Shown here piece by piece: positions 5,294 through 29,483 of a DNA stretch of 64,000 bases. Position numbers and translations under genes: made by a program. Source of the stretch: Ruegeria sp. THAF33 (GTDB lineage: Bacteria; Pseudomonadota; Alphaproteobacteria; Rhodobacterales; Rhodobacteraceae). The DNA is taken from positions 363,501-427,500 of the forward strand of contig NZ_CP045384.1 of assembly GCF_009363615.1 (NCBI RefSeq), written 5' to 3'. Every line of letters begins with the position of its first letter. Position 1 is the first letter of the stretch. The notes beneath the pieces are model-generated. The model was not told the origin of the DNA. It saw only the letters and a list, made by a program, of their open reading frames with translations, and ran no database searches.

Positions 5294-5797
5294 CTAGGTG
5301 TCAGGAGCTGAACGGACATCCGCTCGAATGACGGAAGATGCCTCATCGTCGCCGATCTGCAGCTGAGGCTCATTCGACCGCAACCACGCTGATAGGAGGT
5401 CGGTTGTGACGTTCATCTGATCCGGTTTCCGGAGAGCGCACTCCCACACCGTGGCGATGCGCCACCCGTCTTCCAGAAGCTTATCGCGAACTGCCTCGTC
5501 CCGAGCGACATTTGCGGTGAACTTGGCTTGCCAGAACTCCTGGCGGGTCGATGGACTGGTTGTGTAACGACAGCCCTCATGGCGGTGCCAGAAGCAGCCA
5601 TGCACGAAGACGATTGCGTGATGCTTTGGAAACACGAGGTCAGGTCGCCCGGGCAAATTTTTCGAATGCAGCCGGTAACGGAAGCCGCGGGCATGAAGTG
5701 CCCGCCGAAGCACTAGTTCGGGCTTCGTGTCCTTCCCCTTGATCCCGGCCATCATCCGGGATCGGGTCTGTTTGTCGACGATATCGGCCACGTGCAC
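5294..5797 (-). CDS. vsr: Very short patch repair / Vsr-type DNA mismatch endonuclease
   Basis: 167 aa from a GTG start. The N-terminus DIVDKQTRSRMMAGIKGKDTKPE is diagnostic for Vsr (residues 4-27), followed by GFRYRLHSKNLPGRPDLVFPK, FVHGCFWHRHEGC (zinc/catalytic region) and the WECALR strand. Vsr nicks 5' of T in T:G mismatches that arise from deamination of methylcytosine, and is typically paired with a C5-methyltransferase, here dcm, divergently encoded 61 bp away. The full domain and motifs are present; a C-terminal tail of about 30 residues is extra. Confidence 0.93.
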   Translation of the reverse strand: MHVADIVDKQTRSRMMAGIKGKDTKPELVLRRALHARGFRYRLHSKNLPGRPDLVFPKHHAIVFVHGCFWHRHEGCRYTTSPSTRQEFWQAKFTANVARDEAVRDKLLEDGWRIATVWECALRKPDQMNVTTDLLSAWLRSNEPQLQIGDDEASSVIRADVRSAPDT

Positions 5798-5858
5798 CCT
5801 GGTCTTCGATCTGGAACCTGGTATACACCGACTGAATGAAGTTCGTCAGGAGCCTGAT

Positions 5859-7391
5859 TTGCCTTCGACTTTCGGCATCGTTGATCTGTTCGCCGGCCCC
5901 GGCGGACTTGGTGAGGGGTTTGCATCCCTTGTCGAGGACGGACATGCGCCGTTCCGGATCGGCATCTCGGTCGAGAAGGAGGCATCGGCCCATCGCACGC
6001 TGAGGCTGCGCGCGTTCCTGCGTGAATACAAGGCACGTCAAGGCGCCTTGCCCGATCAGTTCATCGATTTCCATGCAGGGCTTGTCCCCGAGCCGGATTG
6101 GTCAGCAGTCGACGCCGAAGCGTGGCAGCTTGCCATTGATGAGGCTCGTGCACTCGAGCTCGGCACTGAAGCAGCTGCGACGGCGATTGACGGTGCCATC
6201 GCGAAGCTGCGCAAAAACTATGACGATACAATTCTCATCGGCGGGCCGCCCTGTCAGGCTTATTCCATGGTTGGGCGCGCCCGGGCCAAGGGCAAGATCG
6301 GCTATGTACCTGAAGATGATGAGCGGCATTACCTATTCCGAGAGTACATCCGCGTGCTCGAAAGGCTTCGTCCCGCCGCTTTCGTCATGGAAAACGTCAA
6401 AGGCATGCTTTCCTCGACTGTTGCAAGTCGGCTTGTCTTCGAGATGCTGATGGAGGACCTGTCCTCACTTGGTACGGGCCAAGATCATCACTACGACTTG
6501 CTGTCAGTGCGAGTGGAAGACGGAAAAGCTAGCCTGCAAGAAGCAGTACGACCGTCTGATTTCATTGTGCGTGCTGAAGAATTTGGAGTGCCGCAACGAC
6601 GTCACAGGGTGATCATCGTCGGTATCCGATCCGATATTGCGGGCAAGGCAACCCGCGCCGAGATTGCCGTCTCGGGTCTGACGCGGACGGTTAGCGACGT
6701 CATCGGGACAATGCCCGACGTACGCAGCGGTATTAGCCGTGGTCGTGACGATTCATTGGCGTGGCGAGAAGAAGTTGTCGAAGCGGCGAAATTAATGGCC
6801 GACATACACAAGGGGAAAGAGAACGCTCCTCTTCGGCGGGCATTCTCATCCGTTGCCAAGCAAATGAAGTCACGGGCTCCGAACCGTCGAACTGCGTCAT
6901 GTCTGCCGGATCGTTACGGTAACTCAAACGATGAACTACAGAGCTGGCTTGAGCGGCCAGAGCTAAGTGCTATCACCCAACACGAAACTCGCGGGCACAT
7001 GGCCGCGGACCTCGGGCGGTATCTCTTCGCCGCTGTATTCGGGTCAGTGCATGGCTACAGCCCGAAGGCTGCCGATTTTCCTCTCGCGCTCAGCCCAGAT
7101 CATCGGAACTGGCACAGCGGCGTATTCAATGATCGGTTTCGAGTCCAACTTGCCGACGCGGCCGCGACTACGGTAACCAGCCATATTTCGAAGGATGGAC
7201 ATTACTTCATACACCCCGATCCATTCCAGTGCCGCAGCTTGACCGTGCGCGAGGCTGCACGACTACAGACATTCCCTGATGACTACTTATTCATGGGCAA
7301 TCGAACGCAACAGTATGTGCAGGTTGGTAATGCGGTTCCTCCGTTTCTTGCTGTCCAGATTGCTAGACTCCTAAATGCAATTCTCAACTAG
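5859..7391 (+). CDS. dcm: DNA (cytosine-5-)-methyltransferase
   Basis: 510 aa. I chose the TTG at 5859 because AGGAG at 5848-5852 has good spacing and it avoids an overlap with the vsr start; the frame is open upstream to 5727. C5-methyltransferase motifs are in order: FGIVDLFAGPGGLGEGF (I), GGPPCQAYS with catalytic Cys132 (IV), FVMENVKGML (VI), QRRHRVIIVG (VIII), and VQVGNAVPPFLA (X) at the end. It would protect host DNA against the nuclease genes that follow; its target sequence cannot be read. It is divergent to vsr and convergent with the ATPase gene. Confidence 0.93.
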   Translation: MPSTFGIVDLFAGPGGLGEGFASLVEDGHAPFRIGISVEKEASAHRTLRLRAFLREYKARQGALPDQFIDFHAGLVPEPDWSAVDAEAWQLAIDEARALELGTEAAATAIDGAIAKLRKNYDDTILIGGPPCQAYSMVGRARAKGKIGYVPEDDERHYLFREYIRVLERLRPAAFVMENVKGMLSSTVASRLVFEMLMEDLSSLGTGQDHHYDLLSVRVEDGKASLQEAVRPSDFIVRAEEFGVPQRRHRVIIVGIRSDIAGKATRAEIAVSGLTRTVSDVIGTMPDVRSGISRGRDDSLAWREEVVEAAKLMADIHKGKENAPLRRAFSSVAKQMKSRAPNRRTASCLPDRYGNSNDELQSWLERPELSAITQHETRGHMAADLGRYLFAAVFGSVHGYSPKAADFPLALSPDHRNWHSGVFNDRFRVQLADAAATTVTSHISKDGHYFIHPDPFQCRSLTVREAARLQTFPDDYLFMGNRTQQYVQVGNAVPPFLAVQIARLLNAILN

Positions 7392-7442
7392 CTTAGGTAA
7401 TCTTTGAGCAGCGTGACTTCGCTCAACAACTATTGGGATTTC

Positions 7443-8762: not shown

Positions 8763-8968
8763 GGTCTAACCTGTTGACAATCTTCGTAAATGACGGTCTG
8801 TGATTTTGCTCGTTCGGTTGGCAAAGGTGGAGTGATATTCAGTTCAATGACAACTTCTAAGATGAGACTTTGGTACAGTCTTTGAATTGTGATTTTTTGA
8901 CTGTTCACCTGTTCAAAGAAGGAAATATTTCTGTAGCGATCCTGACCTGCCCCCCGGGGCTCCCTCAT

Positions 8969-9829: not shown

Positions 9830-9864
9830 CCTGAGCGCTGCCTCTCGCCGCTCATTCGGCGTCG

Positions 9865-10128
9865 TCAGTTCTTTCCCAGAAGATCCTTCAGAACAGCATT
9901 GTCCAACATCGTATCGGCCAGCAGGCGCTTGAGCCTAGAATTCTCGTCTTCCATCGCCTTCAGCTTCGCGACATCGGACACCTCCATGCCGCCATACTTC
10001 GATTTGTATTTGTAGAACTTGCCCTGGCTGAGGCCGTGCTTGCGGCAAACCTCCGCTGTCGGCATCCCGGCTTCCTGTTCCTTGATCATCCCGATGATCT
10101 GCGCATCGGTGAAACGGCTCTTTCGCAT
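9865..10128 (-). CDS. IS3 transposase OrfA (HTH)
   Basis: 87 aa with the HTH_8 pattern [17 protein letters not shown] then [18 protein letters not shown], and a C-terminal leucine zipper-like [19 protein letters not shown]. It binds the element's ends and is the first half of the OrfAB fusion transposase. Complete. Confidence 0.9.
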
Positions 10129-10238
10129 TCGTTTGCTCCTTCGAAAGGTTGAGCAAACTCTACATCAGAACGAGGGAAGTTTCGGGGGGCAGGTCAATCC
10201 GGTTCACGTGCACAAAGGCCAATTCATATCTTCTCATA

Positions 10239-12044
10239 TTAATTCTCCTGCAGTTCATCAATTCCTCCATATTGCTGGGGAAAAGTGACTAACTTGATTT
10301 TATTCCACGTTTCGAGTCTTTTGGCGACTTCGGAAAATTGCTGACCTGGAGCGATCCTATTGAACTCGGAATTCACAATTACTGCCCAGTCCCAAAGCAG
10401 ATCCCGGAACTCTGCCGAGATACCTTGTCGCATCCAGATCTTCTCAAGGTCGAGCCTATCTCCAATTCGATCTGCGACTACTGCAACAACGTAGGTGGCA
10501 ATATTTACATAACCTTGGCGAAAGATCTCTTTTGCGTCTTTTGTCTTAATCATACTCTCAATGGCTTTGAACACGATTACCTTTGCAATCATTGCGCGAA
10601 ACCACTTTGCATTAAGCGGACTGGGAGCGATGTTTGGATCCTCGTCAAGCGCTGCCATGAGGGCTGCGAAGTTCTTTTCGCCGCCAAGCGCGACCTGGTT
10701 TGGCTTTCCGCGCCACGCCTCATGGTATTTGGCAAGGTCGTTCTTGGTCAGCTTGCGCCTCGGTGGGATCATCTCCTTCAACTTGCGGCGTTTAGCAGGG
10801 GTAGTGCCCTCTCTCAGCAGCATGACGTTGTAGGCGCCAGCCGCCCGCTCATAGAACCAACGGGTAGCGCCATCAGGACACCAAGTGTCGTTTGCAAGTT
10901 TTTCGAGCTCTCGATGGAATGGGCGATTTGCCGAGAGATCTGACATTTTAACTGCGTTTTGACTGTTTGCATAACGCGAGACGTTACTGATTAACCGCTC
11001 ACGCGCTTCGTCTTGTGAGGCCTTGAGAATGATGATCTTGGCCGGAACCATGACATGGCTCAGATCTATGGTACGGTCGTCGCGCGACGCGAAATAGATG
11101 CTCGATGTCGTCTGGCCACCGTTCACGATCTGCAATCCCTTCATGAACGACAAACCCAGATTACCGTCATCAGTACGCTCGAACGCAGCCTCGTCGCAGA
11201 CTAGGACCAAGCCGTTATTGAATGCGAGAAAGTGCTCCGGTTCCTTTCGCAGGGTTTCGACGATACCTTTGTTCACTGCACGTTTGTTTCCCAGGAACGT
11301 GCGAATGTTGGCTTCGAGTAGCGTTGTGCCGTAACGAAGATAAAGATCTCGAATAAGTTGCCCGGGAATGGCAGTCAGGGCGTACTCATAATCCGCGTCA
11401 GGATCAGGAACGTGAACACAAGGTAGAGGTCGACCTATCGACTGAACAAAACTGACTGCGAGTTCATCCCTTGGTTTTCCTTCGGTGTGCCGAAACAGCC
11501 GCTCAATATCCATGGCCTCGACAGCCACCATCTTCTGATGAACCTCTTTGTTCGAGAAACGCTTGGTTTTGGTTCGTCCATCTGTGATCACGAAAACCCG
11601 TAAGCGGTCGATGTCGTGCCATCGGGAACGGATGGTTGCAACGAGGTCCCTGACCGGGTGGGTAGGATCTATTTTTGCGTCAAGCTGGCCACTCGCAGCG
11701 CGAAAGAGGAAGCGTACGCCTTCGCTCGCCGTTCTTGTGGCGTCTGAGTCACGTAGATCGTTTAACTCATCTGTTCCAAAATAGTGGGTCACGAACAGGT
11801 CGAGCGCCGTTTCGTCGGAGCTGAGGGCATAGCCGGTTATGCGCAGCTTGGCGTTACCGACCTTGCCGTTCCAATGACAAACGGTGGGTGCGTCGCATAT
11901 GCCGGTTTCTGCCACGTGCTCCATGACCATTTCGGCAAAAACGAGTTCCTCAGAAGGAAAGGGACCCTCACCATCCGAAACACGTTCGGCGATGATCGTC
12001 TGCATGTCGGAACGAAAATTGTAGTGAAATTCTTCAAGACTCAT
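10239..12044 (-). CDS. AIPR-family (abortive infection phage resistance) protein
   Basis: 601 aa from the ATG at 12044, one base after the stop of the DUF4420 gene; the frame also has an upstream TTG. The AIPR core lies at about 240-345: [30 protein letters not shown], then [14 protein letters not shown] and the MVPAKIIIL strand. AIPR proteins occur in abortive-infection and restriction gene clusters; the biochemical activity is not settled. The WDWAVIV segment near the C-terminus is typical of longer members. It is the last gene before the IS3 insertion and is translationally linked to the upstream nuclease gene. Confidence 0.88.
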
Positions 12045-12045
12045 G

Positions 12046-13050
12046 TCAATCCAGTCCAAACTCGTTGATCAACTCTGGAAGGGTAATGGAAGGAACTTCC
12101 AAAGCATCCAGGTCAAGGACATAGGCGGCAGAACGGATGGCGATTGGCAGGTCAGTACGCGTGAGGCGTGGCATGTGACCTTCCGCGCGAAATCCCTTTG
12201 CATCCTTCAATATCAGCGTGCGGCCATAGAGCGGCGCATGCTCGTCAAGGTACCCCATCACCATCAGTAGGGCTTCGAAGCTTCGCTGCACCCCAGCACG
12301 CTCAAACCTTTCGCGGAGTTCAGACACGAAATCGACAAGTGAAGATCCGTCCGTGTTTTCCTCGAAGCGAAGCCCGCAAAGAAGAATTGGATCTCGAGAA
12401 CCATCCAGCTGCTCGATGCTGTTGATCCGGGCAAGGAAGCTGCCGGTCCGAACCGTGCTCTTTACTTCAATCGCGCCTCCGCGCACGTGAAAGTCTTGCG
12501 CTGCTCGTAATGGTCCTTGCCAGCAATCGAGAGCACCAACTCCCAAGGAAGTGTCCGCGAGCAGTCTCAAAATCCATAACTCGCCGAGAAGGCCGATCTG
12601 TGCATCGGGTGAAAGGGGGCGGTGCGTACGGGCCATGAATGCCTGCCATTCCCTGACCCGTTCGAGGAAGGCCTCTATCACATCGCGCTTCGCCGTGTTT
12701 GCTGCGACTTCCAATGTTCGCAAGACATCGACGACCATTATGGCGAAGATGTCCGGCGATCCTTCGGGCCGTCTGACCAACGCTATGGCAGTCTTTTCGG
12801 CAACGACAGTCTGACCCTCGATGACAACGACATCGAAACCCTTGCCTTCAGGCAACCGTGCCGAATTCATTGACCACGAGCTGGGAAATGAAACAATTAA
12901 CGCTTCTCGCCCCAGGGGGAAGTGGCAGCCGGCCTCAACAGAGACAGCACCCATCTCGGTGAGATGTACAAAGCGCCAGTCTTCACTGGCCTCCTGGCGC
13001 GCGAGCGCTCGCCAAGCGCGTTCAAGCCCTTCCTCAGTCCACCCAGTCAT
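12046..13050 (-). CDS. PD-(D/E)XK motif protein (DUF4420)
   Basis: 334 aa. The nuclease core is at about 145-200: AQIGLLGELWILRLL (helix with conserved GEL-W), then DFHVRGGAIEVKST, giving the D...E-x-K active site of the PD-(D/E)XK fold. Length and motifs match DUF4420 proteins, which neighbour Z1 helicases and AIPR proteins in restriction loci. It is the likely DNA-cleaving component. It overlaps the Z1 gene by 17 bp and ends 1 bp before the AIPR start codon. Confidence 0.85.
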   Translation of the reverse strand: MTGWTEEGLERAWRALARQEASEDWRFVHLTEMGAVSVEAGCHFPLGREALIVSFPSSWSMNSARLPEGKGFDVVVIEGQTVVAEKTAIALVRRPEGSPDIFAIMVVDVLRTLEVAANTAKRDVIEAFLERVREWQAFMARTHRPLSPDAQIGLLGELWILRLLADTSLGVGALDCWQGPLRAAQDFHVRGGAIEVKSTVRTGSFLARINSIEQLDGSRDPILLCGLRFEENTDGSSLVDFVSELRERFERAGVQRSFEALLMVMGYLDEHAPLYGRTLILKDAKGFRAEGHMPRLTRTDLPIAIRSAAYVLDLDALEVPSITLPELINEFGLD

Positions 13051-15922
13051 TCAGACCTCCCCACAGAACGCTGTTGGCGATATACTTGGAATTGGAAACT
13101 CTTCTCTCGGAAGTGCTCGAAGGGAAGCTGATTGCCCAAGCTACTACAGGGTCTGCATTTTCGAGTTCAGGGACGCCAGAGCCGGCAGGATCCAGCAGGT
13201 AGAGCATCAGTAAGCCACGTTCGCGCCGAGCCGGAATGCCAGCGTCAAGTACCCCGTTTCCGAGAACGTGACGGATCTGGGGTCCTCTGGGTTCGGTAGG
13301 TGGTTCTTTGCCTTCGTTTCGATCCGTATCATTGCGCCAGGTTTTTTGACTGAGTTCGAGGGCTGCCTTCCACTCTGCCTCGGTTAGATCAATAGCCTGA
13401 TCGCGTGGGGAAATGAGGGTCTTGATGGAGTACCGATCCGCATGCTCGGCCGCTCTGCGGCGATCCAGCATTTTGACCGATGCGCCACCAACCGACTTTT
13501 CTGTTCCGGGTTGTTCCTTTCCGATAAGGGCCACGGTCCAGTTTGTCAGTTCTTGGTCCTTGTTCATTTCCTCAACGAAGTCTGCGATCAGCGGGCTCAT
13601 AATCCGGAAGCTGGCCGAATGGGTCCTGTACTCCCGAAGGAACGAGATCACGCTGAGTGCTGGCACATCTCGCCACAGGTGTCCGTTCCACTTCTGACCT
13701 GCAGGTACAAAGAGCTGGTGGTTCAGGTCTTTCGATGGGCCTAGTGCGCTGATGAAGCGATCAGTGGCATTGAAGTTTACCGTGATATCGTCCCTTCGAT
13801 TTGGGAACACGATGGTCTGCAGCAGATCGCCTGAATAGGTCAACTGCATCGCTCGCGCGTTTCGCATCTTTGCCCGCGACGTCACGGTCAGCACGGAGTG
13901 GGATTTCACGCGCAGGCCGAACTGCTTCGGCGTGGCACCGGCCGCAACCATGTTATCAAACTCTTGGCGAAGCTCTTCGGCTGCATCGGCGATGTGGCCG
14001 AACCACTCCACCATTTCTTCGGATGTGTATAGGCGGCAGACATCGAGGTAGCCGTCACGGTAGCCGAACCACCGACCCATTTGCATCAGTGTGTCGTACA
14101 TGCGTGCGGTCCGCAGGAAGTAGCTTGTGCAGAGACCCTCGAGCGTCAGACCACGCGCAAGCTTGTCGCCACCGATGGCGATAACCTTCAGGCCGCTGGC
14201 GTCGTTCTCGGCATAGTCCAAAGCGTCCTTCGCCGTGCCGTTGATCTCGCGCACGCGAATGTCCGACAGGACGTCCGGCAAAACGTCTCGAATTTCCGCC
14301 CATGAGAAATCATCCAGCGTCTCGCCTTCCACAAGCGCATCTCGGATCCCTCGCATACCGGGGAGAAAGGTCGCTTCATATTCTTCGCGCATGGATGCTT
14401 CAAGGGGAGCAAGTTCGATGCCACGTGTATATCGGCCTTTCATGTCTCTCACGTAGGTGGCCACCTGATTGAAGACTTCATTTTGTACTGAGGTGAAGCG
14501 CGTCACGTGGATGAGCATGGAAGAGTGCTTGTCGCCTTGTCCGCGCAGTTTCCGTACGGCGCAGGCAAACACGAATGACCGGATCGCTTCTGCGAGCGAG
14601 TCCGGCACGCGATCTTCGCCCTCCCAGCGTGGTCGATGCCCGTTCTTGTGCGGCTTCATTTCTGGCGACGTTGTCGACTTGCTGGGCATCCAGGGCTGGA
14701 ATTCATCGTCTGATAGTGCACGCACCAGTGGCAGGTCTTCTGGCGTGCTTGAAGCGGACCCAAACACGCGTCCCGGTCCGACATAGTTCGATGGTGCCGC
14801 TAGGTTGGTGATGAATGCGGAAGGGAATAGGTCGGGACCATGCTCTTGCGTTTCACCTCGCTCGTGAATGAAGATGTTTGCAAAGGGTGTCGCAGTGTAG
14901 CCGACGTAAGCCTTGCGTGCGAAGTGGTGCAAAATCGCCCGGATGAGCCTGTTGATGGTTTTCGGCTGATGCTCGAGATCTGGGTTGCCGAAATCATCTA
15001 CGACGTCTTCGCCCGTGTCTACTGAACCATGATCCGACTCATCGTCGATCACAAGAATTGGCAAATTGGTAACCATCTTGCGACCCGTTGCGGGATCGGT
15101 GTGATTGGCAACGCGATTGCGGATCCAGTGTAACAAGCGCTCAAGGACCGTCTTGTTTTTCTTGACGACGAACAACCAAGGTCGCTGCTCCGGACTGATA
15201 TTCATCTTGGCCGCAACGGCTGTGTTGAAGTCGCCTTTGTCACTTCGATTAGTTGCGGCATTGGGACGGACAGATGTGTCGTTGTCGATCAGTCCGACCC
15301 CGACCGCGGGAAGCTCATCGGCATCCGCGATCGTGGCAAAGCCGAGAAACCCCTCGTCTAGGCGGATCTGGGTCTGAGCCCTCAAGTTGTTGTGAAGACC
15401 CGCAAGCACGATAATGATCTTGTAACCAGCGTCTGCGGCCTTGCAGATCAGACCGGTGTAGTTGCCTGTCTTTCCGGACTGCACGTGGCCGACGACGAGA
15501 CCGCGGCGATCCCAAGCGCCTTCGCGGACCGGATCCTCGAGGTTTGAAAGAACTTCATCGGTAGCAACGTCGAGGGCGTCGAGAGCCGACCACGGAATAC
15601 GCGTTTCCATGTATTCGGAGTAGCGTTGCCAGTATGTCCACCCCTTTTTTCTTTCAGCGTCGAGCCACGGAATATGGTCCTCGCCGTTCATCAGGGTGGC
15701 GTTCTGACCAACGGTGCGGCTTGAGCGACGGATCAGTTCGTCAACGAGCGCATCCCGATCGACGAGGGCAAAATCCTCCTCCATCATCATTGCGAGCTTT
15801 GCCAGCTCCTTTTCGATCATTTCTGGCGTCACAGGGCTCTGTGCCCGCTCCGCAGCGAGGCGCAGCATGTTCTGCGCCATGGAAAGTATTGAATCGAAGG
15901 CCTTCTGATTAGAAATCGTCAT
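13034..15922 (-). CDS. Z1-domain superfamily II helicase/ATPase
   Basis: 962 aa. Walker A region VVGHVQSGKTGNYTGLI near residue 137, a DEAD-like ILVIDDESDHGSVDTG near 290, KAYVGYTATPFANI near 343, and the Z1 domain with IAIGGDKLARGLTLEGL, TSYFLRTARMYDTLMQMGRWFGYR and YLDVCRLY (about 590-650). Z1 proteins are SF2 enzymes found in MORC/PD-(D/E)XK/AIPR restriction clusters, where they are expected to translocate along or remodel DNA. It overlaps both neighbours (4 bp with the GHKL ATPase, 17 bp with DUF4420). Confidence 0.9.
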   Translation of the reverse strand: MTISNQKAFDSILSMAQNMLRLAAERAQSPVTPEMIEKELAKLAMMMEEDFALVDRDALVDELIRRSSRTVGQNATLMNGEDHIPWLDAERKKGWTYWQRYSEYMETRIPWSALDALDVATDEVLSNLEDPVREGAWDRRGLVVGHVQSGKTGNYTGLICKAADAGYKIIIVLAGLHNNLRAQTQIRLDEGFLGFATIADADELPAVGVGLIDNDTSVRPNAATNRSDKGDFNTAVAAKMNISPEQRPWLFVVKKNKTVLERLLHWIRNRVANHTDPATGRKMVTNLPILVIDDESDHGSVDTGEDVVDDFGNPDLEHQPKTINRLIRAILHHFARKAYVGYTATPFANIFIHERGETQEHGPDLFPSAFITNLAAPSNYVGPGRVFGSASSTPEDLPLVRALSDDEFQPWMPSKSTTSPEMKPHKNGHRPRWEGEDRVPDSLAEAIRSFVFACAVRKLRGQGDKHSSMLIHVTRFTSVQNEVFNQVATYVRDMKGRYTRGIELAPLEASMREEYEATFLPGMRGIRDALVEGETLDDFSWAEIRDVLPDVLSDIRVREINGTAKDALDYAENDASGLKVIAIGGDKLARGLTLEGLCTSYFLRTARMYDTLMQMGRWFGYRDGYLDVCRLYTSEEMVEWFGHIADAAEELRQEFDNMVAAGATPKQFGLRVKSHSVLTVTSRAKMRNARAMQLTYSGDLLQTIVFPNRRDDITVNFNATDRFISALGPSKDLNHQLFVPAGQKWNGHLWRDVPALSVISFLREYRTHSASFRIMSPLIADFVEEMNKDQELTNWTVALIGKEQPGTEKSVGGASVKMLDRRRAAEHADRYSIKTLISPRDQAIDLTEAEWKAALELSQKTWRNDTDRNEGKEPPTEPRGPQIRHVLGNGVLDAGIPARRERGLLMLYLLDPAGSGVPELENADPVVAWAISFPSSTSERRVSNSKYIANSVLWGGLNDWVD

Positions 15923-17421
15923 AGTGAATCTTTCACTTCAAGGGATGAAACTAGGTCGAGATACCTGTCGAATGGGGGCGTGCGACCGAGCCGTTCGCGC
16001 GCCTCAGCAGGACTCAGACCGCGAAATGCAACAAGTGCTTCGAACATCGAGGACAATGTCTCCATAACTTCTTCGTCCGATGCCCCGGTGAAACCTGTCC
16101 TCGGCGTTTCCTTGTCTTCTGCGGTGTCAAGCCAGATGCGCTGAACTGGAACGGTCTCCTCAATGAGCCTGAGAACAGCGAGGATGTCCGGTTTGAGCGA
16201 TCCTGCGCGTTTCAGGATTGAGGCGATGAGGTCATGTTCTCGGGCAATCCGGTAAGAGGTCCCTTGTGCGGAGCGCCGCACTTGCCAAGCCTCGGCAACC
16301 GCGTCCGAGCGCGTGCCCGAAACAGGCGCGACGTGACCTCGGTGGGCAAAGACCCGTCTCGCCGTGTCCCGCGTCTCCGATGCAAGGCGGTGAAGTTGAG
16401 GCCGCAGACGTACCGGCGGATTGGCGGTCGACTTCAGAACATTGATCTTCCAATCGGCGTCCGCGCTGTTTGGTATGTCAAGGCTTATGCGGGCGAGCCG
16501 GTGAGCTTCATCGCGCGGCCATGGCTTACCGCCATCGCCTAGGCCCAGCCAGCCCCCTGCAAGAAGGAGACGGCGATTGCGATAGACGTAGAAGCCCTCC
16601 TGCTGCGTCCATCCTCCGGGTCCGGCTGCGGATTCTTGTTCGGTAGGCTTGAGCATGTCGCGGTGCGGAAGGACATGACACTGAACTGTCACACCTGTCG
16701 TATGTAGGATGCGATACTCGGGGCTTTCGAGCGCTTTGCCGGGATGTCCTATCATGTAAGGATCCCAAGGCTTCACCCCCCTACCGTTGAGAAGGAGGCG
16801 CAGCGTCGGCTGCTGCCCGTCCAAAAGACGATGAAAGGTCATCGCAAAATGTGCTTCGACGCGATCGGCGAGCTCGATCATGTCGGTGGCGGCGAAGCCA
16901 TCGGTCACAATACGGTCTAGCTTCTCCCAAAGGACGATAGTGCCGTGTTCCATCTGCTCGAGGGGCGCAAGCAGTTTCTCAGATCCTTGTGCGGGCCCTT
17001 CAAAGAGCGGCCATTCGGCGCCCGGCTCCTGACCAATTAGGTCGAGATCCCAGCGCAGGCATACAACAGGTCCGCCATTCTGCCGACTGGCAACGGTCAG
17101 TCTTCGAGCTTGAGAGAAACTTGCTGTCTTAAGGCCCAGTCCGAAGCGCCCAAGGTCGCTGGCTGCGCGCTCCGCCCGAGGATCACGTGCACCAAGGCGC
17201 ATTCCGGCTTCAAGGGCCGCGTCGTCCATGCCGTCGCCGTCGTCAACAATCCTTACCCAGCTGTCTGGGCCAGCCCATTCGAGATGGATGGCGACCTCGC
17301 TTGAATTCGCTGTAATGGAATTGTCAACCAGATCGGCCAGTGCAGTAGGAAGCGCATAGCCAAGCCCGCGAAGTGACTCAAGCATCGAACCGGCATAGGG
17401 GGGAGCATTTCGCACAGTCAT
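15919..17421 (-). CDS. GHKL ATPase, MORC/MutL-like, of a restriction system
   Basis: 500 aa. All Bergerat-fold motifs are present: ALADLVDNSI with Asn34, IVDDGDGMDD at 58-67, and GRFGLGLKTASFSQA at 91-105, followed by an S5-like second domain. It lacks a histidine-kinase H box and a MutL C-terminal dimerisation domain. Prokaryotic MORC/MutL-type ATPases of this kind are known from restriction clusters with Z1 helicases, DUF4420 and AIPR proteins, and probably act as an ATP-driven DNA clamp. Its ATG overlaps the stop of the sigma-like gene (ATGA), and its stop overlaps the Z1 start. Confidence 0.88.
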   Translation of the reverse strand: MTVRNAPPYAGSMLESLRGLGYALPTALADLVDNSITANSSEVAIHLEWAGPDSWVRIVDDGDGMDDAALEAGMRLGARDPRAERAASDLGRFGLGLKTASFSQARRLTVASRQNGGPVVCLRWDLDLIGQEPGAEWPLFEGPAQGSEKLLAPLEQMEHGTIVLWEKLDRIVTDGFAATDMIELADRVEAHFAMTFHRLLDGQQPTLRLLLNGRGVKPWDPYMIGHPGKALESPEYRILHTTGVTVQCHVLPHRDMLKPTEQESAAGPGGWTQQEGFYVYRNRRLLLAGGWLGLGDGGKPWPRDEAHRLARISLDIPNSADADWKINVLKSTANPPVRLRPQLHRLASETRDTARRVFAHRGHVAPVSGTRSDAVAEAWQVRRSAQGTSYRIAREHDLIASILKRAGSLKPDILAVLRLIEETVPVQRIWLDTAEDKETPRTGFTGASDEEVMETLSSMFEALVAFRGLSPAEARERLGRTPPFDRYLDLVSSLEVKDSL

Positions 17422-20363
17422 TGGAGTTGCTCCCTGCCGGAGTCTGCTAGACCGAGGCGGCTCAGCTTACCAATTACTGCATTCCGGCTGGTTCCCCCCA
17501 GTTCCTCCGCGATCTCACTTGCGCTCATGCCGGTCGCCCAAAGCTCCTCAAGACGAGCTACTCGGTATCTCGTCCAGGACATAAGTTGCCGGTTGTTGTT
17601 ATCTGTTTCGGATGCGCCATCTTTTTCTTTGTGCAGCACAGAGGGGACTTTCAATCCGCGACTGCTGTCGTAGCCCAGTAATTCTTGGAGCTGACGCTTG
17701 CGACCAGGATGAGAAAGTCGGTCAAGGCCCTTTGCCTCGATCTGTCGAATGCGCTCGCGTGTCACTCCATAGATCTGACCAATTTCCTCGAGGGTCATCT
17801 CGGACTCGCGATCGATCCCAAAGCGCATCCGAATTATATCTGCCTCGCGCTCTGGCAGTTCAGCTAGGGCGTCCGCAATGATTTTTTCAGTCTCTGCCTC
17901 GTCGAAGGCGTTCGCGTCCTCTTGACCAGGGAATATCTCATCCCAGTCGTCGATGCTTTCTGGATACACAGCCTCGCGGGGAAACCCACGAAACTGAGAC
18001 ACCTCTTCAGTTGTCCATTCCAGTTCCTCGGCAAGATCCTTTTCGGAAACATAGCCGTCGGCCCTAACGTCGAGCTTATCCATGGCGAGATCTAACCTCG
18101 CAATTTTCTCCTTCCTATGAACAGGGATGCGGATCGTAGATCCTTCGTCAGCACGCCATCGCATGATCGCCTGCCGCATCCAGTAAGAGGCATAGACAAC
18201 GAAGCGATAACCGCGCTCTGGATCAAAGCGCCGCGTGGATCGCTGTAGCCCCATGAACGCCACCTGAAAGACGTCCTCCGGGTCTTCACCTTCCTCCACG
18301 CTCCGTGCAGCAAAGCGTCGTGCGTAAGGCAGGTGTTTGCGGACTAGTCGCTCGTTGGCGGCCTCAAAGAGCGAGATTTGCGTATTCAGCTCGTTGACAT
18401 GCTCTGTGCTGGCAAGGTTTTGTTCAATCGAACTAACGAGCTCCTTTAGGAATCCCAGAGATAGATCGAGCGCCTCAAGCGCTTCAAGCGCTTGCCGTCG
18501 CCGTTTACCATCCATAACGCGTCCATTTTCTTGCCAAGACTTGAGGGATTCCGCAGCGGCCATGACTTCGGCCGTCTCGGTGTGGCCGGGGCGAGAGGGG
18601 ATTATGGTCTTCAGCGAGACAGAACTTGGGTTCCGGACGCCACTCTGGATGGTGTCGACGACATCAAGGATCGTTTGGACGGCGGCTTCGGAGGCGAGAA
18701 TTCCCAACTGAAGCCCTTGCTTTGCCCGGACCATGGGCTCCAAGAGTTGCCGTTCATCGGACTTGTCCATGACGAAGCGATGTGTTCCAGGCAGCCGCGT
18801 CGATCTTGTGAGAGCTGTCTCGATTGCTTCAGAAAGCTCATCCGAAGATATCTCCGTTCGGGAGTCCCAAAGCCCGTCATTATGCCTGAAGGCTAAATCT
18901 ACCTCGTCGAAGCCGCCGACCTCAAGGTTGCGCTGGAGGTTGATGCGCAATTCCTCAAGATCACCATTGCCGTCGCATAGAGCGAGAAGGCTTTCGATGT
19001 CGCTGGATGAGTACCATCCCTTTTGCAAAATTTCCTTGGCCCATGAGGTGCAGATCTCCGGATCGATTGACAGTCGCGTGCCGCTCTGAACCACCGCGGA
19101 TTTGATTGATTGGCGCCCACGGTTACGTACCTTGAGAAAATCATGCTCGGTGCGATTATCCGAGCTTACGGCGGCGGCACCAATGCCTTCACCGGCAATC
19201 GATGCTGGTGAAAGGTCGAGATCCCAATCTCCGTGCTCATCCGTGGAAACTACAGGTGAGGGACTGACGAGCGCAACGAATGTCCCCGAAACCGCTTCGC
19301 GCTTGGACTCGCCGAAGAAATTCTCCGGCTCTTCCTCAGCTTCAAAAACAAGCAAGTCGTCAAGGTCATCTAGTTGGCTTGGTGCCGCATTAGATTGCTC
19401 AGTCTCCGCGCTGAGCGGTTCCGGTTGCGCTGCAATGGGCGGAGCGGCAACGGACGGGGGTACTTCAGCTAACGTTTCGGAGCTGCTGTCGTCATCACCC
19501 TCTTTTTTCCACAGGCCGAGACGATGTGCTTTGCTCAGCACTGCATTGCGGCTGACCCCACCCAACTCCCTTGCGATCTGGTTCGCACTTCGGCCTTCGG
19601 CCCACATTCTTTTCAGGAGGTCGACCCGCTCCTCTGGCCAAGACGACCTTGCGGATGACTTTGGATTTTCTTCGTATTGGGTGAGCTCCGTGCGCTCACT
19701 GGTTGTTCCCCTCAACCTGTATATACCCAAACAGTGAATCTGATTGAGTATTGCGCCGGGAGTGGCGGGTCCGCCAAGTTTTTGAGCGATCTGGCCTGGT
19801 TCTGCGCCTAAGGACCACAGTCGTGTCAGTTCCTCATTTCTTTCTTCGGTCCAATACTTTTCCTCAAATTGTTCATCAGCATGCTTCGAAGGCGCTTCCG
19901 GTTTTCTTTGCGGGGTTGGCGAGATTCGATGTTCTGAAACATCGTTTCTAAGCGCTTTGCTGGTTTCGGATCTTGGGGTGATGCCGCCTTCTTCAGGTTT
20001 TTCTTCGGTTGGCGATTCTGTAACAAGCGAAGACAGAAGCTGCGATGCTAACCCGTGACCCTCGGAAAATGCGACGTCAGCGGGGGTTTGCCGTTCATCG
20101 TTAAGTGTATTGGGGTCGGCCCCGGAACGGATGAAGAGATCGCATAGAGCAAGGTTTCCCGACCGTGCTGCCAGATGGAGTGGGGTGTCTCCCTTCGGAT
20201 CAGAAAAATGGAGGCGTGCAGACGCAGCGAAATCGGAAAGTCTATCGAGCTTACCTTCGGCAATCAGCCGGATCTCGTAAGGGGCAAGAACTTGGCTTTC
20301 GGGTGTGTAGTTAGGCGAGGCACGACCGCCCAGAACTCGAGACAATTTATCCATAATTTTCAT
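17418..20363 (-). CDS. Ankyrin - GcrA-HTH x2 - sigma-70 - GcrA-HTH fusion protein
   Basis: 981 aa from ATG 20363 (GGAGG six bases upstream; the longer open frame overlaps the WYL gene more deeply). Domains in order: ankyrin repeats at about 55-115 (DTPLHLAARSGNLALC, GADPNTLND, QTPADVA); GcrA-type HTH at 171-215; a second at 242-285 (WAEGRSANQIARELGGVSRNAV); acidic linker; sigma-70 region 2 to region 4 at about 670-900 (DVFQVAFMGLQRSTRRFDPE, YASYWMRQAI, LEEIGQIYGVTRERIRQIE); a third GcrA-type HTH at about 932-975. Region 4 is complete. GcrA is the alphaproteobacterial cell-cycle factor that binds methylated promoters and sigma-70. The fusion is encoded inside the restriction operon, overlapping WYL and GHKL genes. 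Its promoter targets are unknown. Confidence 0.88.
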   Translation of the reverse strand: MKIMDKLSRVLGGRASPNYTPESQVLAPYEIRLIAEGKLDRLSDFAASARLHFSDPKGDTPLHLAARSGNLALCDLFIRSGADPNTLNDERQTPADVAFSEGHGLASQLLSSLVTESPTEEKPEEGGITPRSETSKALRNDVSEHRISPTPQRKPEAPSKHADEQFEEKYWTEERNEELTRLWSLGAEPGQIAQKLGGPATPGAILNQIHCLGIYRLRGTTSERTELTQYEENPKSSARSSWPEERVDLLKRMWAEGRSANQIARELGGVSRNAVLSKAHRLGLWKKEGDDDSSSETLAEVPPSVAAPPIAAQPEPLSAETEQSNAAPSQLDDLDDLLVFEAEEEPENFFGESKREAVSGTFVALVSPSPVVSTDEHGDWDLDLSPASIAGEGIGAAAVSSDNRTEHDFLKVRNRGRQSIKSAVVQSGTRLSIDPEICTSWAKEILQKGWYSSSDIESLLALCDGNGDLEELRINLQRNLEVGGFDEVDLAFRHNDGLWDSRTEISSDELSEAIETALTRSTRLPGTHRFVMDKSDERQLLEPMVRAKQGLQLGILASEAAVQTILDVVDTIQSGVRNPSSVSLKTIIPSRPGHTETAEVMAAAESLKSWQENGRVMDGKRRRQALEALEALDLSLGFLKELVSSIEQNLASTEHVNELNTQISLFEAANERLVRKHLPYARRFAARSVEEGEDPEDVFQVAFMGLQRSTRRFDPERGYRFVVYASYWMRQAIMRWRADEGSTIRIPVHRKEKIARLDLAMDKLDVRADGYVSEKDLAEELEWTTEEVSQFRGFPREAVYPESIDDWDEIFPGQEDANAFDEAETEKIIADALAELPEREADIIRMRFGIDRESEMTLEEIGQIYGVTRERIRQIEAKGLDRLSHPGRKRQLQELLGYDSSRGLKVPSVLHKEKDGASETDNNNRQLMSWTRYRVARLEELWATGMSASEIAEELGGTSRNAVIGKLSRLGLADSGREQLQ

Positions 20364-21207: not shown

Positions 21208-21225
21208 TTCGCACTCCCGACCCGG

Positions 21226-21246
21226 TGCGTATGATTAATGTACGCG
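21226..21246. promoter_or_regulatory. Candidate operator: short inverted repeat before the WYL gene
   Basis: GCGTA at 21227-21231 and TACGC at 21241-21245 form a palindrome with a 9-bp AT-rich spacer, about 20-40 bp upstream of the WYL start codon. BrxR-type regulators bind inverted repeats in this position. Between 21247 and 21561 I see no gene; the promoter of the operon should lie here. Confidence 0.35.
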
Positions 21247-21561
21247 CCCATTTTTTGTGCTGATCGAAAGCTAGCGGGGACTCGTGTCGGATTCAATCGG
21301 AATCCTACGATGTTTCGGGGGTTTGCTCGAACGAACAGAACCTGAAGATCGCAGAACTTCTGTCCTTTCGATATTAATAATGTGAATAATTTTTCTTTGA
21401 ATGCCACCAGCCAAACAGAATTGACCATACAAGTGAAGTTCGTCGCAAACGGACGTGATGCAACAGTCCAACTCTTAGGTTTGGAGCGCGAGCTAAACAG
21501 GGCGGACCAGCTTTAGCCGTGCAGCAGCTTATAGCGATCCGGAAGACATGCCGTAGGCGCT

Positions 21562-22713
21562 TCACGAGATTAAGCTCTTGATACTGGCAGACACCATCGC
21601 CTCGAATTGGTCAGCGTTCAGGGCATTGCCCTTGCGCGGTACAAAAACAAACCGCTGCTCCGCGAAATCGAAGGGAAGATCCGAGGTCCGCTCTTTGTCC
21701 TCACGGATCGGCAACCAACGGCGGATGTCTTCAGGCGAGTTCCCATAATGGGCGTGCATCATCCCTGCCTCTATCAATACGTTGGGGTTGTCTTGGTACC
21801 TGGTCTTCTTTCCACCTCGTGGCAAAGGCTCCGAGAAGTAGCAGATGCCGTAAGCTGCCTCATTGATCTTGTTGATGATACCCGCAGTGATCGAACCAGT
21901 CTTCGTATCCTTGTCCCAGCAATAGAGCTCGATCTGGTTCTTGAAGCTCTTTTCGCAAACAGCCCGGACGATCTCTATGACCTTAGGATCGGCGCGCTGC
22001 CCGAAGGCAAAGAACACTTGCGGGGTTCGCAGCGATCCAGGCTGCGTCGGATCGGATAGCTTTGTTTTTAAATCCTCGGCTGCCCGTGCGGTGCCGTTGC
22101 TTTGCTCCCTGGTAGTTTCGAATAGCCAGATTACCCGTGAAATAGCTTTGACCAATGTGCCTATCTGTTGCGTCCGTTCAGGCGTGAAACAAATCCGGTC
22201 CCGGAACTCTATGTTCATCACACCAAAAACGCGCGAGCGCTTCTCGCCGAATCGGATCGGAACGATGACTGACGTGCCAGCGTCACCGCCGCCGTAATCA
22301 ACGTATGCTGGCAAGTCTGCCGGCGGGTCGTTGCCATTATCGCTTCCATTGCCCCAACTCCGCACCGTTACTTTGGAATAGTCGAGGCCCTTGAGTCGCT
22401 TGTCTTTGCCGCTCTTCGTCGTGATCCAAAGGGGACAGCCGTGGGTGTACGAATAGGCTCGTTGACTAGAATAATTTCCTCCGTCGTTGAAGAGCGGGTG
22501 CGAGTCTCGCTCTTCCTCGCGGCTCGACCAGAAACTCGTCAATGCAGGTTTTCCGTTGACGCGTATGCCATCGATCTTCACCTCGAAGTACACCGCGCCC
22601 AGACTGCCGAGCACGTAGCTCTCTACGGCCGCTTTGAAGGTAGTAAATGCGTGTTCGCTAATCGAGTCGATAGAATTTGCAAAATTGAGGATTCGCTGCT
22701 CTTGCATATTCAA
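21562..22713 (-). CDS. GAF-like sensor plus TIR-like nucleotide-binding domain protein
   Basis: 383 aa. The first 210 residues resemble a GAF domain (conserved VIVPIRFGEKRSRVFGVMNIEF near 165-190, and the helix after it). The C-terminal 150 residues start with PQVFFAFGQR and continue with ICYFSEPLP and NPNVLIEAGMMHAHYG, the order of the TIR-like predicted nucleotide-binding family (PF10137 type), with Glu near residue 313 in the TIR catalytic-glutamate position. A signal-sensing NAD-consuming effector is a reasonable reading, not shown. It is transcribed in the same direction as the WYL operon but 355 bp upstream, so it has its own promoter. Confidence 0.6.
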   Translation of the reverse strand: MNMQEQRILNFANSIDSISEHAFTTFKAAVESYVLGSLGAVYFEVKIDGIRVNGKPALTSFWSSREEERDSHPLFNDGGNYSSQRAYSYTHGCPLWITTKSGKDKRLKGLDYSKVTVRSWGNGSDNGNDPPADLPAYVDYGGGDAGTSVIVPIRFGEKRSRVFGVMNIEFRDRICFTPERTQQIGTLVKAISRVIWLFETTREQSNGTARAAEDLKTKLSDPTQPGSLRTPQVFFAFGQRADPKVIEIVRAVCEKSFKNQIELYCWDKDTKTGSITAGIINKINEAAYGICYFSEPLPRGGKKTRYQDNPNVLIEAGMMHAHYGNSPEDIRRWLPIREDKERTSDLPFDFAEQRFVFVPRKGNALNADQFEAMVSASIKSLIS

Positions 22714-22852
22714 ACCTTGTTCTTGTAACTAAAAACGACACGTACTTTCGTCAGAATGATTCAAGCATAACATAACCATAAGTCTCTGCCCAACACATGG
22801 CTGGCGCACGCAAACATTTCGGCGTAGCGCGGGTCGACTTAGTTGTGCCTAG

Positions 22853-23290
22853 GTCGTGTTGACAAAAGGGATTCACATCAGGCTTTGAGCATGATTTAAG
22901 CTGATATCTGCGATGGAGACCAGCTTGGCACGAGATTTGATGTCGGACGAGGAGTGGGCGTTCTTTGAACAGTTCATTCTTTCCGTTCGCGCCCGGAATG
23001 GGCGAAAACCTACCAACCACCGCCTTGTCCTTGACGGCGTTTTCTGGATAGCACGTACCGGCGCACCGTGGCGGGACCTTCCTGAAGAGTTCGGGAAATG
23101 GTCGAGTGTCTATCGGCAATTCCGGCGTTGGACACTTGTTGGCCTCTGGGAACAGATCCTAGAGGCGCTGATCGAGAGCAGGATCGTTCCAGATGCCCTG
23201 CAAATGGTCGACAGCACCGTGGTTCGCGCCCATCATCAGGCAGCGGGCGCTAAAGGGTGACTCCGCGACAGGGTTTTGGCCGCTCAAAGG
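22853..23290 (+). mobile_element. Truncated IS5-family (IS427-like) element
   Basis: The left end follows a CTAG at 22849-22852. The first transposase frame (22913-23260) reads SDEEWAFFEQFILSV, WIARTGAPWRDLPEEFG, VDSTVVRAHHQAAGAKG and stops; the second frame starts at GRSKGGFT and then loses all similarity near 23290. The right end and most of orfB (DDE core) are missing, so it is dead. CTAG target sites are usual for this group. Confidence 0.8.
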
Positions 23291-24047
23291 GCGGCTTCAC
23301 GAATTTATTGACAACGGAAGATTTCAAGGGTCGCTCGTGCGAAAAGGAACACGTTTGGAATAAAAAATTTTCTCTTCACGACAAGAGTTATAGCGCATTT
23401 GACGACCTTAGTACGAAAAAGGTTCGCCGCGGTCGGGTAGTCATGCCGAGAGAAGGAAGTCTCGTTTGACTGTATGGTTCTGCGGCTTTCACAGTTTCTT
23501 GTCGAAAACGGACTCTGCCGCGGCTCAGCAGAAGAGTTGTTGGTGATGGGCACATGCAAAGAAACCGAATGCCGGCCATGCGCGGGCCCGACCTATCCCG
23601 CCAGAAGAGCTTTGGCTCCTGATTATACCCGTCGCAATAGCACTTTCTCTTTTTCGCGGTATTGTGGACGACAAGATAGCAGCAAAAGTCACCTCTGCCT
23701 TTAGGTCCACTCGTAGCAACAATTGCATCTGCGGGCCAAGCATCAAACATTGAAGCACTCGACTTCTCTTCTCCTGATGTATCTGCGAAGGAACTTGCTC
23801 GACGATGGAAAACCTCATGGAAGACCTTGAATTTATCGGTGCTCTCGGCGTCCAAAAAGCATTCATCCACGTCGACGGTCGCGGACATAACGCAGACTTG
23901 GGCGAGGCAGTCCCGGACTGACAGAAAAACAACATTTATGAACCTTGGGCTGGGCTTGCCGTCGTCGCACGATTATTGACTAACTCATAGGTATAAGCAA
24001 ATCTGCGCACGGGTAATCTGTAGTTGAATTCAATTTATCGGGGCAAA
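23291..24047. other. No convincing gene; degraded stretch between IS fragment and protease gene
   Basis: Several short frames are open on both strands, for example 23388-23888 on the minus strand and a 38-codon plus-strand frame from about 23812 (MENLMEDLEFIGALGV). None has a good RBS or a family motif that I recognise. The stretch probably holds gene debris left by the IS5 truncation and the promoter of the trypsin-TPR operon. RBS for the next gene is a weak GGGGC. Confidence 0.45.
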
Positions 24048-25703
24048 ATGCCTAACGTTTTTAACAGTTACGACAAAGTTGTTGCGCTCGCCGAGAACAT
24101 ACGCGCTGGTTCCATAGTTTCGCAACAAGACGCGTGGGATATTATGCGGGCTCTTCAAAACTTTCGGGATTTCGAACGTGTTGTCGGTCTGGCCGAGTCG
24201 CTGCTGGTTCAGTATCCTGAGGACCACACGCTGACCAAGGCCTACGCGCAAGCCCTGGTAGAACTGGGGAACCCAATAGCGGCGCAGGGACTCTTGCAGC
24301 AGGTCTTGTCCGGTATGTCGGAGGCCGATAGGGAATTTAGCGACATTAAGGGCGTCCTCGGGCGTGCGTTCAAAGAAACGTGCCAGTCAGCAGCGCGGCT
24401 TGGACAAATTGGCTTGGCGAACGACGCTCTCACGCATTCTTTTGCAGCCTACGCCGAACCATATGAGCGAGATCCGAAAAAAAATTACTACCACGGTATT
24501 AATCAAGTGGCGCTGCTGCATTTGGCGGAGCGATGTGAAGCTGACGTGCTGACGAGTGTGAACAAGAAACAACTGGCTCGGGAGGTTCTTTCAACGCTGG
24601 ACGATACAGACACAAGCGACGTCTGGATGCGGGCAACCCGTGTTGAAGTTTGCGTGGCGCTGGAAGACTGGGACAATGCGCTGGAAGCAGTAAAAAGCTA
24701 TGTCGAAGTAAACAGCAACGGCGATAAAACAGCCACCGCCTTTCAACTCCACAGTACACTACGCCAACTGCGAGACATCTGGGACATCGGTGCGGCCGGC
24801 GATACTGGCCTCGACATCCTTACCACTCTGGAAGCTGCTGCTTTTCAACGTAGCAGCATATCTGATGTCGGCGACGGTATCAGTATCGAAAAGAGTGCGG
24901 CCAGTATGGCTGATACACTTGACTATACTAAAGAAAATGCGTCGCACCTTGAAAAGATGTTCGGGCTGGACGGCCTAAAAACACTCCGCTGGTTTCGGCA
25001 AGGTGTAGAGCGCGCCTCATCCGTGGCTTCAGTGATCGGAGAAGATGGCAGCAGGGTCGGGACAGCTTTCGCCATTTGCCCGAAAGAATGGCAATTGCCA
25101 CAGGTCGAAGCTGGCGAGATCGCGTTGATGACAAATTACCACGTCATGAACGAAAACGGATACGGTGATGAGGCGCTTACACTAGCAGAGGCCAAGGTCA
25201 GGTTCGAAGCGCTTTCGGAAAAGGAATTCCGAGCAAAGCGTATTCTCTTCGAAAACCAGACGTTTCGGAACGGTCTCGACGCTACAATTTTCACAGTTGC
25301 CGGAAACCTTCAGAAGCTGAAGCCAGTGCCTTGCAATCTCGACAGCCTTCCTCGCCTAAATAAAGATAAGCGTGTATACGTCATCGGGCACCCGGATGGC
25401 GGAGAACTACAGTTTTCGCTGCAAGACAACCGCTTGTTGGACCATGAAGGCGGGCCGGACGGCAACCCGCCCGAGCCGTCACGCGTACGTGTCCATTACT
25501 TCGCGCCGACCAAGCCTGGGAGCAGCGGCAGCCCGGTATTTAACGAAGGCTGGGAGTGTATCGCACTGCACCGTGCCGGCAGCAGATATGTCGCTGGTAA
25601 GGAACCAGGAATGAAGCAACTCAATGGAAAGACAGGCCGCTACTCAGCGAATGAAGGTGTTTGGGTTGGCTCGATAAAAGCGCGCATACCAGACAATTCA
25701 TGA
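24048..25703 (+). CDS. TPR / TRAFs-binding-like domain plus trypsin-like serine protease
   Basis: 551 aa from ATG 24048 (the frame also opens from a TTG at 24024). Residues 10-240 are helical TPR-like repeats (FRDFERVVGLAESLLVQYPEDHTLTKAYAQALVELG; YYHGINQVALLHL matches the GIN motif of the TRAFs-binding/DUF4071 domain). The C-terminal 220 residues are a chymotrypsin-fold protease: TNYHVM with His365, NGLDATIFTV with Asp411, and GSSGSPVF with Ser493, a complete triad. No signal peptide, so it acts inside the cell. It heads an operon with lipase, M15 peptidase and TIR-TPR genes and may be activated by infection to cut a partner (inference). Confidence 0.85.
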   Translation: MPNVFNSYDKVVALAENIRAGSIVSQQDAWDIMRALQNFRDFERVVGLAESLLVQYPEDHTLTKAYAQALVELGNPIAAQGLLQQVLSGMSEADREFSDIKGVLGRAFKETCQSAARLGQIGLANDALTHSFAAYAEPYERDPKKNYYHGINQVALLHLAERCEADVLTSVNKKQLAREVLSTLDDTDTSDVWMRATRVEVCVALEDWDNALEAVKSYVEVNSNGDKTATAFQLHSTLRQLRDIWDIGAAGDTGLDILTTLEAAAFQRSSISDVGDGISIEKSAASMADTLDYTKENASHLEKMFGLDGLKTLRWFRQGVERASSVASVIGEDGSRVGTAFAICPKEWQLPQVEAGEIALMTNYHVMNENGYGDEALTLAEAKVRFEALSEKEFRAKRILFENQTFRNGLDATIFTVAGNLQKLKPVPCNLDSLPRLNKDKRVYVIGHPDGGELQFSLQDNRLLDHEGGPDGNPPEPSRVRVHYFAPTKPGSSGSPVFNEGWECIALHRAGSRYVAGKEPGMKQLNGKTGRYSANEGVWVGSIKARIPDNS

Positions 25704-25767
25704 CAGAACTCGATGGCCGCAGGTTTTAGAATTCGGAAATTCAGAACAGTTCTTTAGGAGACCGAAC

Positions 25768-27135: not shown

Positions 27136-27136
27136 T

Positions 27137-27688: not shown

Positions 27689-27692
27689 CCTC

Positions 27693-29463: not shown

Positions 29464-29483
29464 GCCACCCTTGGTACGCCCGA

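Follow-up and report, generated by a model that had tools for sequence, protein, structure and literature searches.

A sigma factor with an ankyrin front and GcrA-type DNA-binding domains in an Mza anti-phage locus of Ruegeria sp. THAF33

The Mza locus and the build of MzaA

The 64,000-nucleotide stretch of Ruegeria sp. THAF33 analysed here (the window; positions 363,501 to 427,500 of contig NZ_CP045384.1, assembly GCF_009363615.1) contains an operon in the order WYL, mzaA, mzaB, mzaC, mzaD, and mzaE, in which gene ends overlap (Table 1). Judged by its genes, the locus is an Mza anti-phage system, since PADLOC names MzaB, MzaC, MzaD, and MzaE beside mzaA. This bears out the defence setting given to mzaA in a preliminary description made from the letters of the DNA. 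Mza (mzaABCDE) is an anti-phage system reportedly described by Gao et al. in 2020, and NCBI annotation uses the name MzaE in a plasmid. MzaB to MzaE all match PADLOC models and the order A-B-C-D-E is kept in the window, whereas the PADLOC model of MzaA (PDLC02203, E 7e-34) matches only the sigma part of the window protein (profile 417-665 of 683).

A sigma factor in Mza is already published and is not new, because mzaA has been called "a sigma factor" in an account of mzaABCDE (PMC9523054). Ankyrin repeats, GcrA-type helix-turn-helix (HTH) domains, and a leading WYL gene are absent from the available part of that account. The preliminary description knew of no such architecture in restriction systems. 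With respect to the sigma factor this does not hold; with respect to the fusion of GcrA and ankyrin it does, within the open-licence literature, where no paper joining these two to the Mza sigma was found. New here are the full primary-sigma chain, its place abutting mzaB and its conserved RpoD promoter contacts, the optional GcrA HTHs, and an apparent copy of RpoD in two loci.

Pfam confirms the domain order first read in the 981-residue protein (ankyrin, two GcrA HTHs, an acidic linker, sigma-70, and a third GcrA HTH). The ankyrin repeats, three GcrA stretches, Sigma70_r2, and Sigma70_r4 are all found far above chance. The same length, domains, and three HTHs recur in two homologues that are 95% and 91% identical to it over the part searched. 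An AlphaFold2 model built from 75 sequences has a mean predicted local distance difference test score (pLDDT) of 73 and a predicted template modelling score (pTM) of 0.41. pLDDT is mostly about 75-97 in the ankyrin part, the three HTHs, and the sigma body, and mostly below 50 in the linkers. With confident domains on such linkers, the HTHs of the model look like beads on flexible strings.

By its sequence, MzaA consists of an ankyrin-acidic module followed by a complete primary-sigma chain that runs from regions 1.1-1.2 to region 4. Among the features of group 1 sigma-70 factors, regions 2 and 4 are present, and regions 1.1 and 1.2 are present by profile and structure alignment. hhalign matches regions 1.1-1.2 of MzaA to those of sigma with Prob 99.2 (E 8e-19), or Prob 98.0 (E 1.9e-13) without ten RpoD-like members; the reversed-sequence control gives Prob 0.2. 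Another control, run with the ankyrin part, was discarded at Prob 82.5; it is not clean, because short members have region 1.1 in their first 250 residues. VIA-align places residues 436-899 of the window model onto residues 7-613 of sigma70, and the top structural row is 5yix, a complex of sigma domain 2 with the sigma-interacting domain of GcrA.

Alignment of the family shows that residues for core binding and for reading the -10 and -35 elements are largely kept across MzaA sequences. With the contact positions presumed from E. coli numbering, counterparts of R584, E585, R588, and Q589 are kept in 71 of 71 MzaA, as is that of D403; those of Q406 and R451 are kept in 70, and those of Q437 and W434 in 69. 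MzaA thus resembles RpoD in regions 1.1/1.2 to 4 and in its -10 and -35 contacts, but differs from it in the ankyrin-acidic front and an altered region 3.2. In the window's clade this region is shortened, to 32 residues vs 41, and most members have an altered GDFIED segment, a hint that the main output of MzaA may be something other than initiation itself. MzaA is not the main sigma of the cell; a separate RpoD is encoded in the same genome.

Occurrence of MzaA and its GcrA-type domains

The survey of Mza loci was anchored on MzaC, not MzaA. The best 80 genome-contig matches of a capped list gave 79 loci, to which four plasmid loci were added; of these 83, seven were dropped (six truncated, one without MzaB), leaving 76 testable for MzaA. 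Protein searches scored the best 8000 candidates. A sigma-type MzaA lies directly before mzaB in 70 of the 76 loci, with a gap of -187 to +52 bp in all 70 (negative values are overlaps, and the values depend on the choice of start). A Pfam scan of 50 of the 71 MzaA finds sigma regions 2 and 4 in every one and Ank_2 in 45. A plasmid search for MzaA at E 1e-60 gave no match; the plasmid loci L056, L057, and L059 do hold diverged MzaA. In a phage search at E 1e-5, 166 records match MzaA, none at 80% or more of the query, and the 20 matches listed all fall within residues 633-917.

GcrA is described as a sigma-70 cofactor of Alphaproteobacteria (PMC7403470). The window MzaA has three copies of the N-terminal DNA-binding type of GcrA. 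It differs from GcrA in that the HTH is covalently joined to a sigma factor and that no sigma-interacting domain is seen in it (the best Pfam GcrA match covers 2-84 of 155). The CxWP segment of host GcrA occurs in 0 of 76 HTH-bearing homologues. GcrA itself is also encoded in the window's genome. The fusion is not confined to the window: within the broad set of 71 MzaA it is also found in L060, L061, L071, and L088 (five carriers in all), and 76 of the 120 closest homologues have it. Among these 120 the number of HTH copies varies from 0 to 4, and copies stand ahead of the sigma part, behind it, or on both sides. The GcrA-bearing hosts that were looked up or labelled on trees (Halovulum, Sedimentimonas, Haematobacter, Paracoccus, and Pararhodobacter) are Rhodobacterales or Paracoccaceae.

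Across these sequences the GcrA HTHs are an optional add-on to MzaA. Thirteen other MzaA (L094, L099, L103, L104, L109, L112, L115, L118, L120, L121, L127, L135, and L137) share a different C-terminal tail of about 88-148 residues after sigma region 4, unlike GcrA; four printed copies end like GFE..PGKGYWK. MzaA is thus, as far as its sequences tell, an ankyrin-acidic-sigma core with exchangeable extras. The HTHs could even be passengers with no specific role, the ankyrin-sigma part alone being what matters. Their varying copy number and their complete absence from 44 of the 120 close homologues agree with this, but 41 of 66 N-side copies and 44 of 57 C-side copies retain the RNAV recognition segment and the HTHs have high-confidence folds in the AlphaFold2 model, so that we regard it as improbable.

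Of the fetched loci, 57 exceed 19 kb, and all of these contain MzaD and MzaE. Fifty-two of them also have Vsr, 46 a methyltransferase, and 12 a WYL gene resembling that of the window. Six more distant MzaB-MzaC pairs (L027-L032) adjoin a methyltransferase. Mza resembles the paraMORC/MORC restriction-modification neighbourhoods with AIPR (Iyer et al. 2008, PMC2292703), which have a GHKL ATPase, a helicase, a restriction endonuclease (RE)-fold nuclease, AIPR, and DNA methylases. It differs from them in that the words "sigma" and "ankyrin" occur 0 times in the available text of that paper.

In the window, a transposase-like open reading frame (ORF) and an AAA ATPase separate the mza operon from the C5-methyltransferase and the Vsr endonuclease. 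The transposase-like ORF (8969-9829, flanked by the AIPR gene and the AAA ATPase) is presumably of IS3 type. The other side of the operon (21562-36447) looks like the surroundings of a defence island, with a weak CAP12/TIR match, TPR-S with a trypsin-like protease, an LCAT-like hydrolase, an M15 peptidase, TPR-S with TIR, an nSTAND1 ATPase, and TIR proteins. The same genome has a second defence locus with transcription-initiation parts (L139, C5:34000-52000). It is a Dnd-Pbe phosphorothioation cluster (1213-15796; DndB, DndC-like, DndD, an aminotransferase, PbeA, and PbeC) that includes a 1026-residue protein in which sigma-70 region 4 is accompanied by weak alpha-CTD/HhH matches.

Some loci of the survey are unusual in other ways. 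Four Pseudomonas/Stutzerimonas loci (L083, L084, L092, and L095), one group on a quick MzaC tree, are without sigma MzaA and have a methyltransferase gene directly before mzaB. L138, an Mza-like locus, has no MzaA before mzaB; a sigma-like ORF (15938-19330, minus strand, profile E 1e-16) lies on the opposite strand directly after mzaE. L078 is labelled Flavobacteriaceae and its MzaC is 63% identical to that of the window; a mis-binned contig or long-range transfer is possible.

Table 1. Features of the mza operon and its neighbours in the window
Feature	Position	Strand	Basis or remark
mzaA, 981 aa: ankyrin, GcrA-HTH x2, acidic linker, sigma-70 (1.1-like to 4), GcrA-HTH	17418..20363	-	Pfam, PADLOC
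Ankyrin repeats, residues 23-114	20022..20297	-	
GcrA-type HTH 1, residues 171-215; recognition segment TPGAI replaces RNAV	19719..19853	-	
GcrA-type HTH 2, residues 242-286; RNAV motif intact	19506..19640	-	
Acidic linker, residues about 331-395; near-invariant W380	19179..19373	-	Low pLDDT
Sigma region 1.1-like domain, residues about 436-500	18864..19058	-	hhalign; VIA-align model rows
Region 1.2 / non-conserved-region-like helices, residues about 510-660	18384..18836	-	
Sigma region 2, residues 673-740	18144..18347	-	Pfam; residue check
Sigma region 3 and shortened region 3.2 linker, residues about 748-812	17928..18122	-	
Sigma region 4, residues 832-884	17712..17870	-	Pfam; residue check
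GcrA-type HTH 3, residues 930-974; RNAV motif intact	17442..17576	-	
WYL-domain regulator, first operon gene, overlaps mzaA	20347..21207	-	
Conserved promoter TTGAAT-17-TAGCTT	21268..21296	-	TTGN3-17-TAN3T in 13/13 distinct upstreams
Inverted repeat, proposed WYL operator	21224..21248	.	Alone weak in any one sequence
Three GANTC (CcrM-type) sites over promoter, starts 10 and 11 bp apart	21279..21304	.	Not conserved
mzaB, GHKL/MORC-type ATPase	15919..17421	-	PADLOC 563 bits
mzaC	13034..15922	-	PADLOC 1115 bits
mzaD, DUF4420, PD-(D/E)XK nuclease family	12046..13050	-	PADLOC 196 bits
mzaE, AIPR protein	10239..12059	-	PADLOC 543 bits
C5-cytosine methyltransferase, frequent Mza neighbour	5727..7391	+	
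Vsr-type endonuclease, frequent Mza neighbour	5294..5797	-	

Sigma parts close to RpoD

The best identity of MzaA regions 2-4 to any RpoD ranges from 33% to 82% (70 MzaA). The highest value belongs to the MzaA of L131 (Azonexaceae) and is reached with the RpoD of the Rhodocyclales genome of L082, which stands in here for L131's own. Over 513 residues, from region 1.2 through the non-conserved region (NCR) to region 4, these two are 73% identical. The MzaA of L114 (Gallionella) is 62% identical over 518-526 residues to two RpoD, its own genome's and that of L118. Both proteins have an ankyrin front and a full NCR. Two sigma trees (MzaA_L070 was excluded from them) place both inside RpoD; in that of 26 MzaA and 43 RpoD, L131 stands beside the RpoD of L082 (97/88) and L114 with the RpoD of L114 and L118 (96/96). 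A single MzaA clade remains compatible with approximately unbiased (AU) tests (p 0.074 with 26 MzaA and 0.057 with 13), and the case for copies of RpoD therefore rests on placement, NCR, and identity. On these grounds the sigma parts of the two betaproteobacterial MzaA look like recent copies of the host lineage's RpoD.

The quick MzaC tree has L131 within a starred group of seven, and the MzaA of the other six are diverged. The first 330 residues of L131's MzaA resemble other MzaA fronts, most closely that of L082 (46% over 336 positions; only MzaA fronts were compared). The simplest reading of these alignments is that an ankyrin front received a new sigma body. Taken together, the sequences suggest that Mza sigma genes have been rebuilt more than once from the bacterium's own main sigma. 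L097 was considered as a third case and is not claimed; it falls with Burkholderiales RpoD in the first tree (89/62), not in the second. The Competibacteraceae MzaA (L090, L100, and L106) are outside the RpoD group in both trees. Genomes G801, G807, G812, and G820 each encode a second near-full-length RpoD-like protein, 46-48% identical to the RpoD of the window's genome.

One possible explanation is an integrated decoy. MzaA would copy the host sigma (here also the DNA-binding part of GcrA), and phage factors that hijack RNA polymerase or sigma would bind it by mistake and trip MzaB-E. The nesting of two sigma parts with the host lineage's RpoD is in line with this, as is the NCR of L131 and L114, which is unneeded for promoter reading, and the GcrA HTHs are likewise host initiation parts. 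RpoD-like sigma parts are also scattered over the quick MzaC tree (8 changes for 10 rows, at least four of them forced by starred branches), although the class "RpoD-like" was defined from similarity after inspection. The same pattern is expected, however, if MzaA must fit the host polymerase and promoters, the AU tests leave a single MzaA clade standing, and no phage partner is known. We consider the decoy unlikely. The wider proposal that a defence sensor has repeatedly been built from host initiation parts (RpoD, and in Rhodobacterales the GcrA DNA-binding domain) as bait or guard against takeover of RNA polymerase by phages seems to us about as improbable as the decoy itself.

Control of the operon and the role of MzaA

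Upstream regions of the WYL gene were compared in 17 loci, 13 of them distinct (the BLAST rows L071, L077 (twice), and L178 were dropped). Every one of the 13 has TTGN3, exactly 17 nt, and then TAGCNT (10) or TACGGT (3), at 89-95 bp before the WYL start; note that this pattern was picked after viewing the alignment and that the loci are related. A plain promoter scan of the window did not list this site. The promoter is the same in four regions before a GcrA-bearing MzaA and in nine before an MzaA without GcrA HTH. Twelve of the 13 also have an inverted repeat whose centre lies about 29-36 bp ahead of the WYL start (that of L075 is elsewhere). In a single sequence, 1 to 68 of 200 shuffles match its length, so the case for a WYL operator here, which we propose, is built on a place and sequence common to related loci. 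In BrxR/CapW systems, too, a WYL gene heads a defence operon and an inverted repeat lies near the start (PMC9122588, PMC9122589, and PMC9122601, in the parts available). With its WYL domain and its place at the head of a defence operon, the window's WYL protein is a candidate repressor of this type.

The preliminary description suggested that the sigma reads DNA methylation or phage state and switches the locus. More broadly, MzaA could function as an alternative sigma that, on infection, activates mza or further genes, with the GcrA HTHs choosing methylated promoters. In favour of this, most promoter-contact residues are kept, and its own operon has the -35-like TTG and the exact 17-nt spacing in all 13 distinct upstreams. 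Three GANTC sites overlap the window promoter, with a spacing (chosen after seeing it) that occurs once in the 4.63 Mb genome. In 180 kb of the same genome (nine stretches of contig C1) no GANTC triple within 40 bp was found; a first-order Markov control overestimates GANTC (324 sites vs 128 observed).

Several results stand against this switch. No GANTC lies within 160 bp in the other 12 distinct regions, three of which precede a GcrA-bearing MzaA, and methylation reading through GANTC at the operon promoter is rejected. Over the 400 bp next to the WYL start, GANTC is absent from L172 and L173 and occurs once in L174, at -354. L071 (GANTC at -114, -97, and -16, and more further up) and L178 (one at -272) are also GcrA-bearing; these positions are not comparable, because their WYL match lacks the N-terminal part. 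The GcrA HTHs are missing in 66 of the 71 broad-set MzaA, and the nine loci without them have the same promoter. The WYL gene and the inverted repeat, at nearly the same place in 12 of the 13 regions, point to other control, and region 3.2 is reduced in the window's clade. The switch model is weakened because the conserved sigma-70-type promoter and the leading WYL gene are there irrespective of the GcrA HTHs, and a switch sigma is in our view doubtful.

A role of MzaA in transcription initiation in general is likely. Our tentative choice, held at somewhat less than even confidence, is that MzaA serves as a sensor or as a targeting subunit which, bound to RNA polymerase or promoters, recruits or triggers MzaB-E. 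MzaA would bind the RNA polymerase core or ordinary promoters, and its ankyrin module would hold the ATPase-helicase-nuclease machinery of MzaB-E. Mza would thereby be brought to, or activated at, the points where transcription is initiated on incoming DNA. The GcrA HTHs may add promoter contacts in hosts bearing them, and the operon would be switched on and off mainly by the WYL protein rather than by MzaA.

Some points weigh against such a subunit. Six of the 76 testable loci have no MzaA before mzaB, and in five of them no sigma ORF was found anywhere in the fetched stretch; for this reason the rest of Mza may work without MzaA. With the window's clade alone, hhalign does not detect region 1.1 (Prob 0.7, Neff 2.2). 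The window MzaA also deviates from RpoD in region 2 (counterparts of N409 to F, M413 to Q, and W433 to Y) at positions where many other MzaA follow RpoD, and its core or -10 contacts may therefore be altered. The kept -10/-35 residues would be expected just as much in an ordinary initiating sigma.

What an anti-phage system needs a sigma factor for can now be framed as testable questions. Apparently the Mza sigma can be replaced by a new copy of the RpoD of the host lineage, and one MzaA group seems to have taken up the DNA-binding domains of a sigma-70 partner. If confirmed, this would link phage sensing to transcription initiation and would be a clear case of a defence gene refreshed from a housekeeping gene. 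If MzaA were a decoy, it would be a bacterial integrated decoy that unleashes an ATPase-helicase-nuclease complex.
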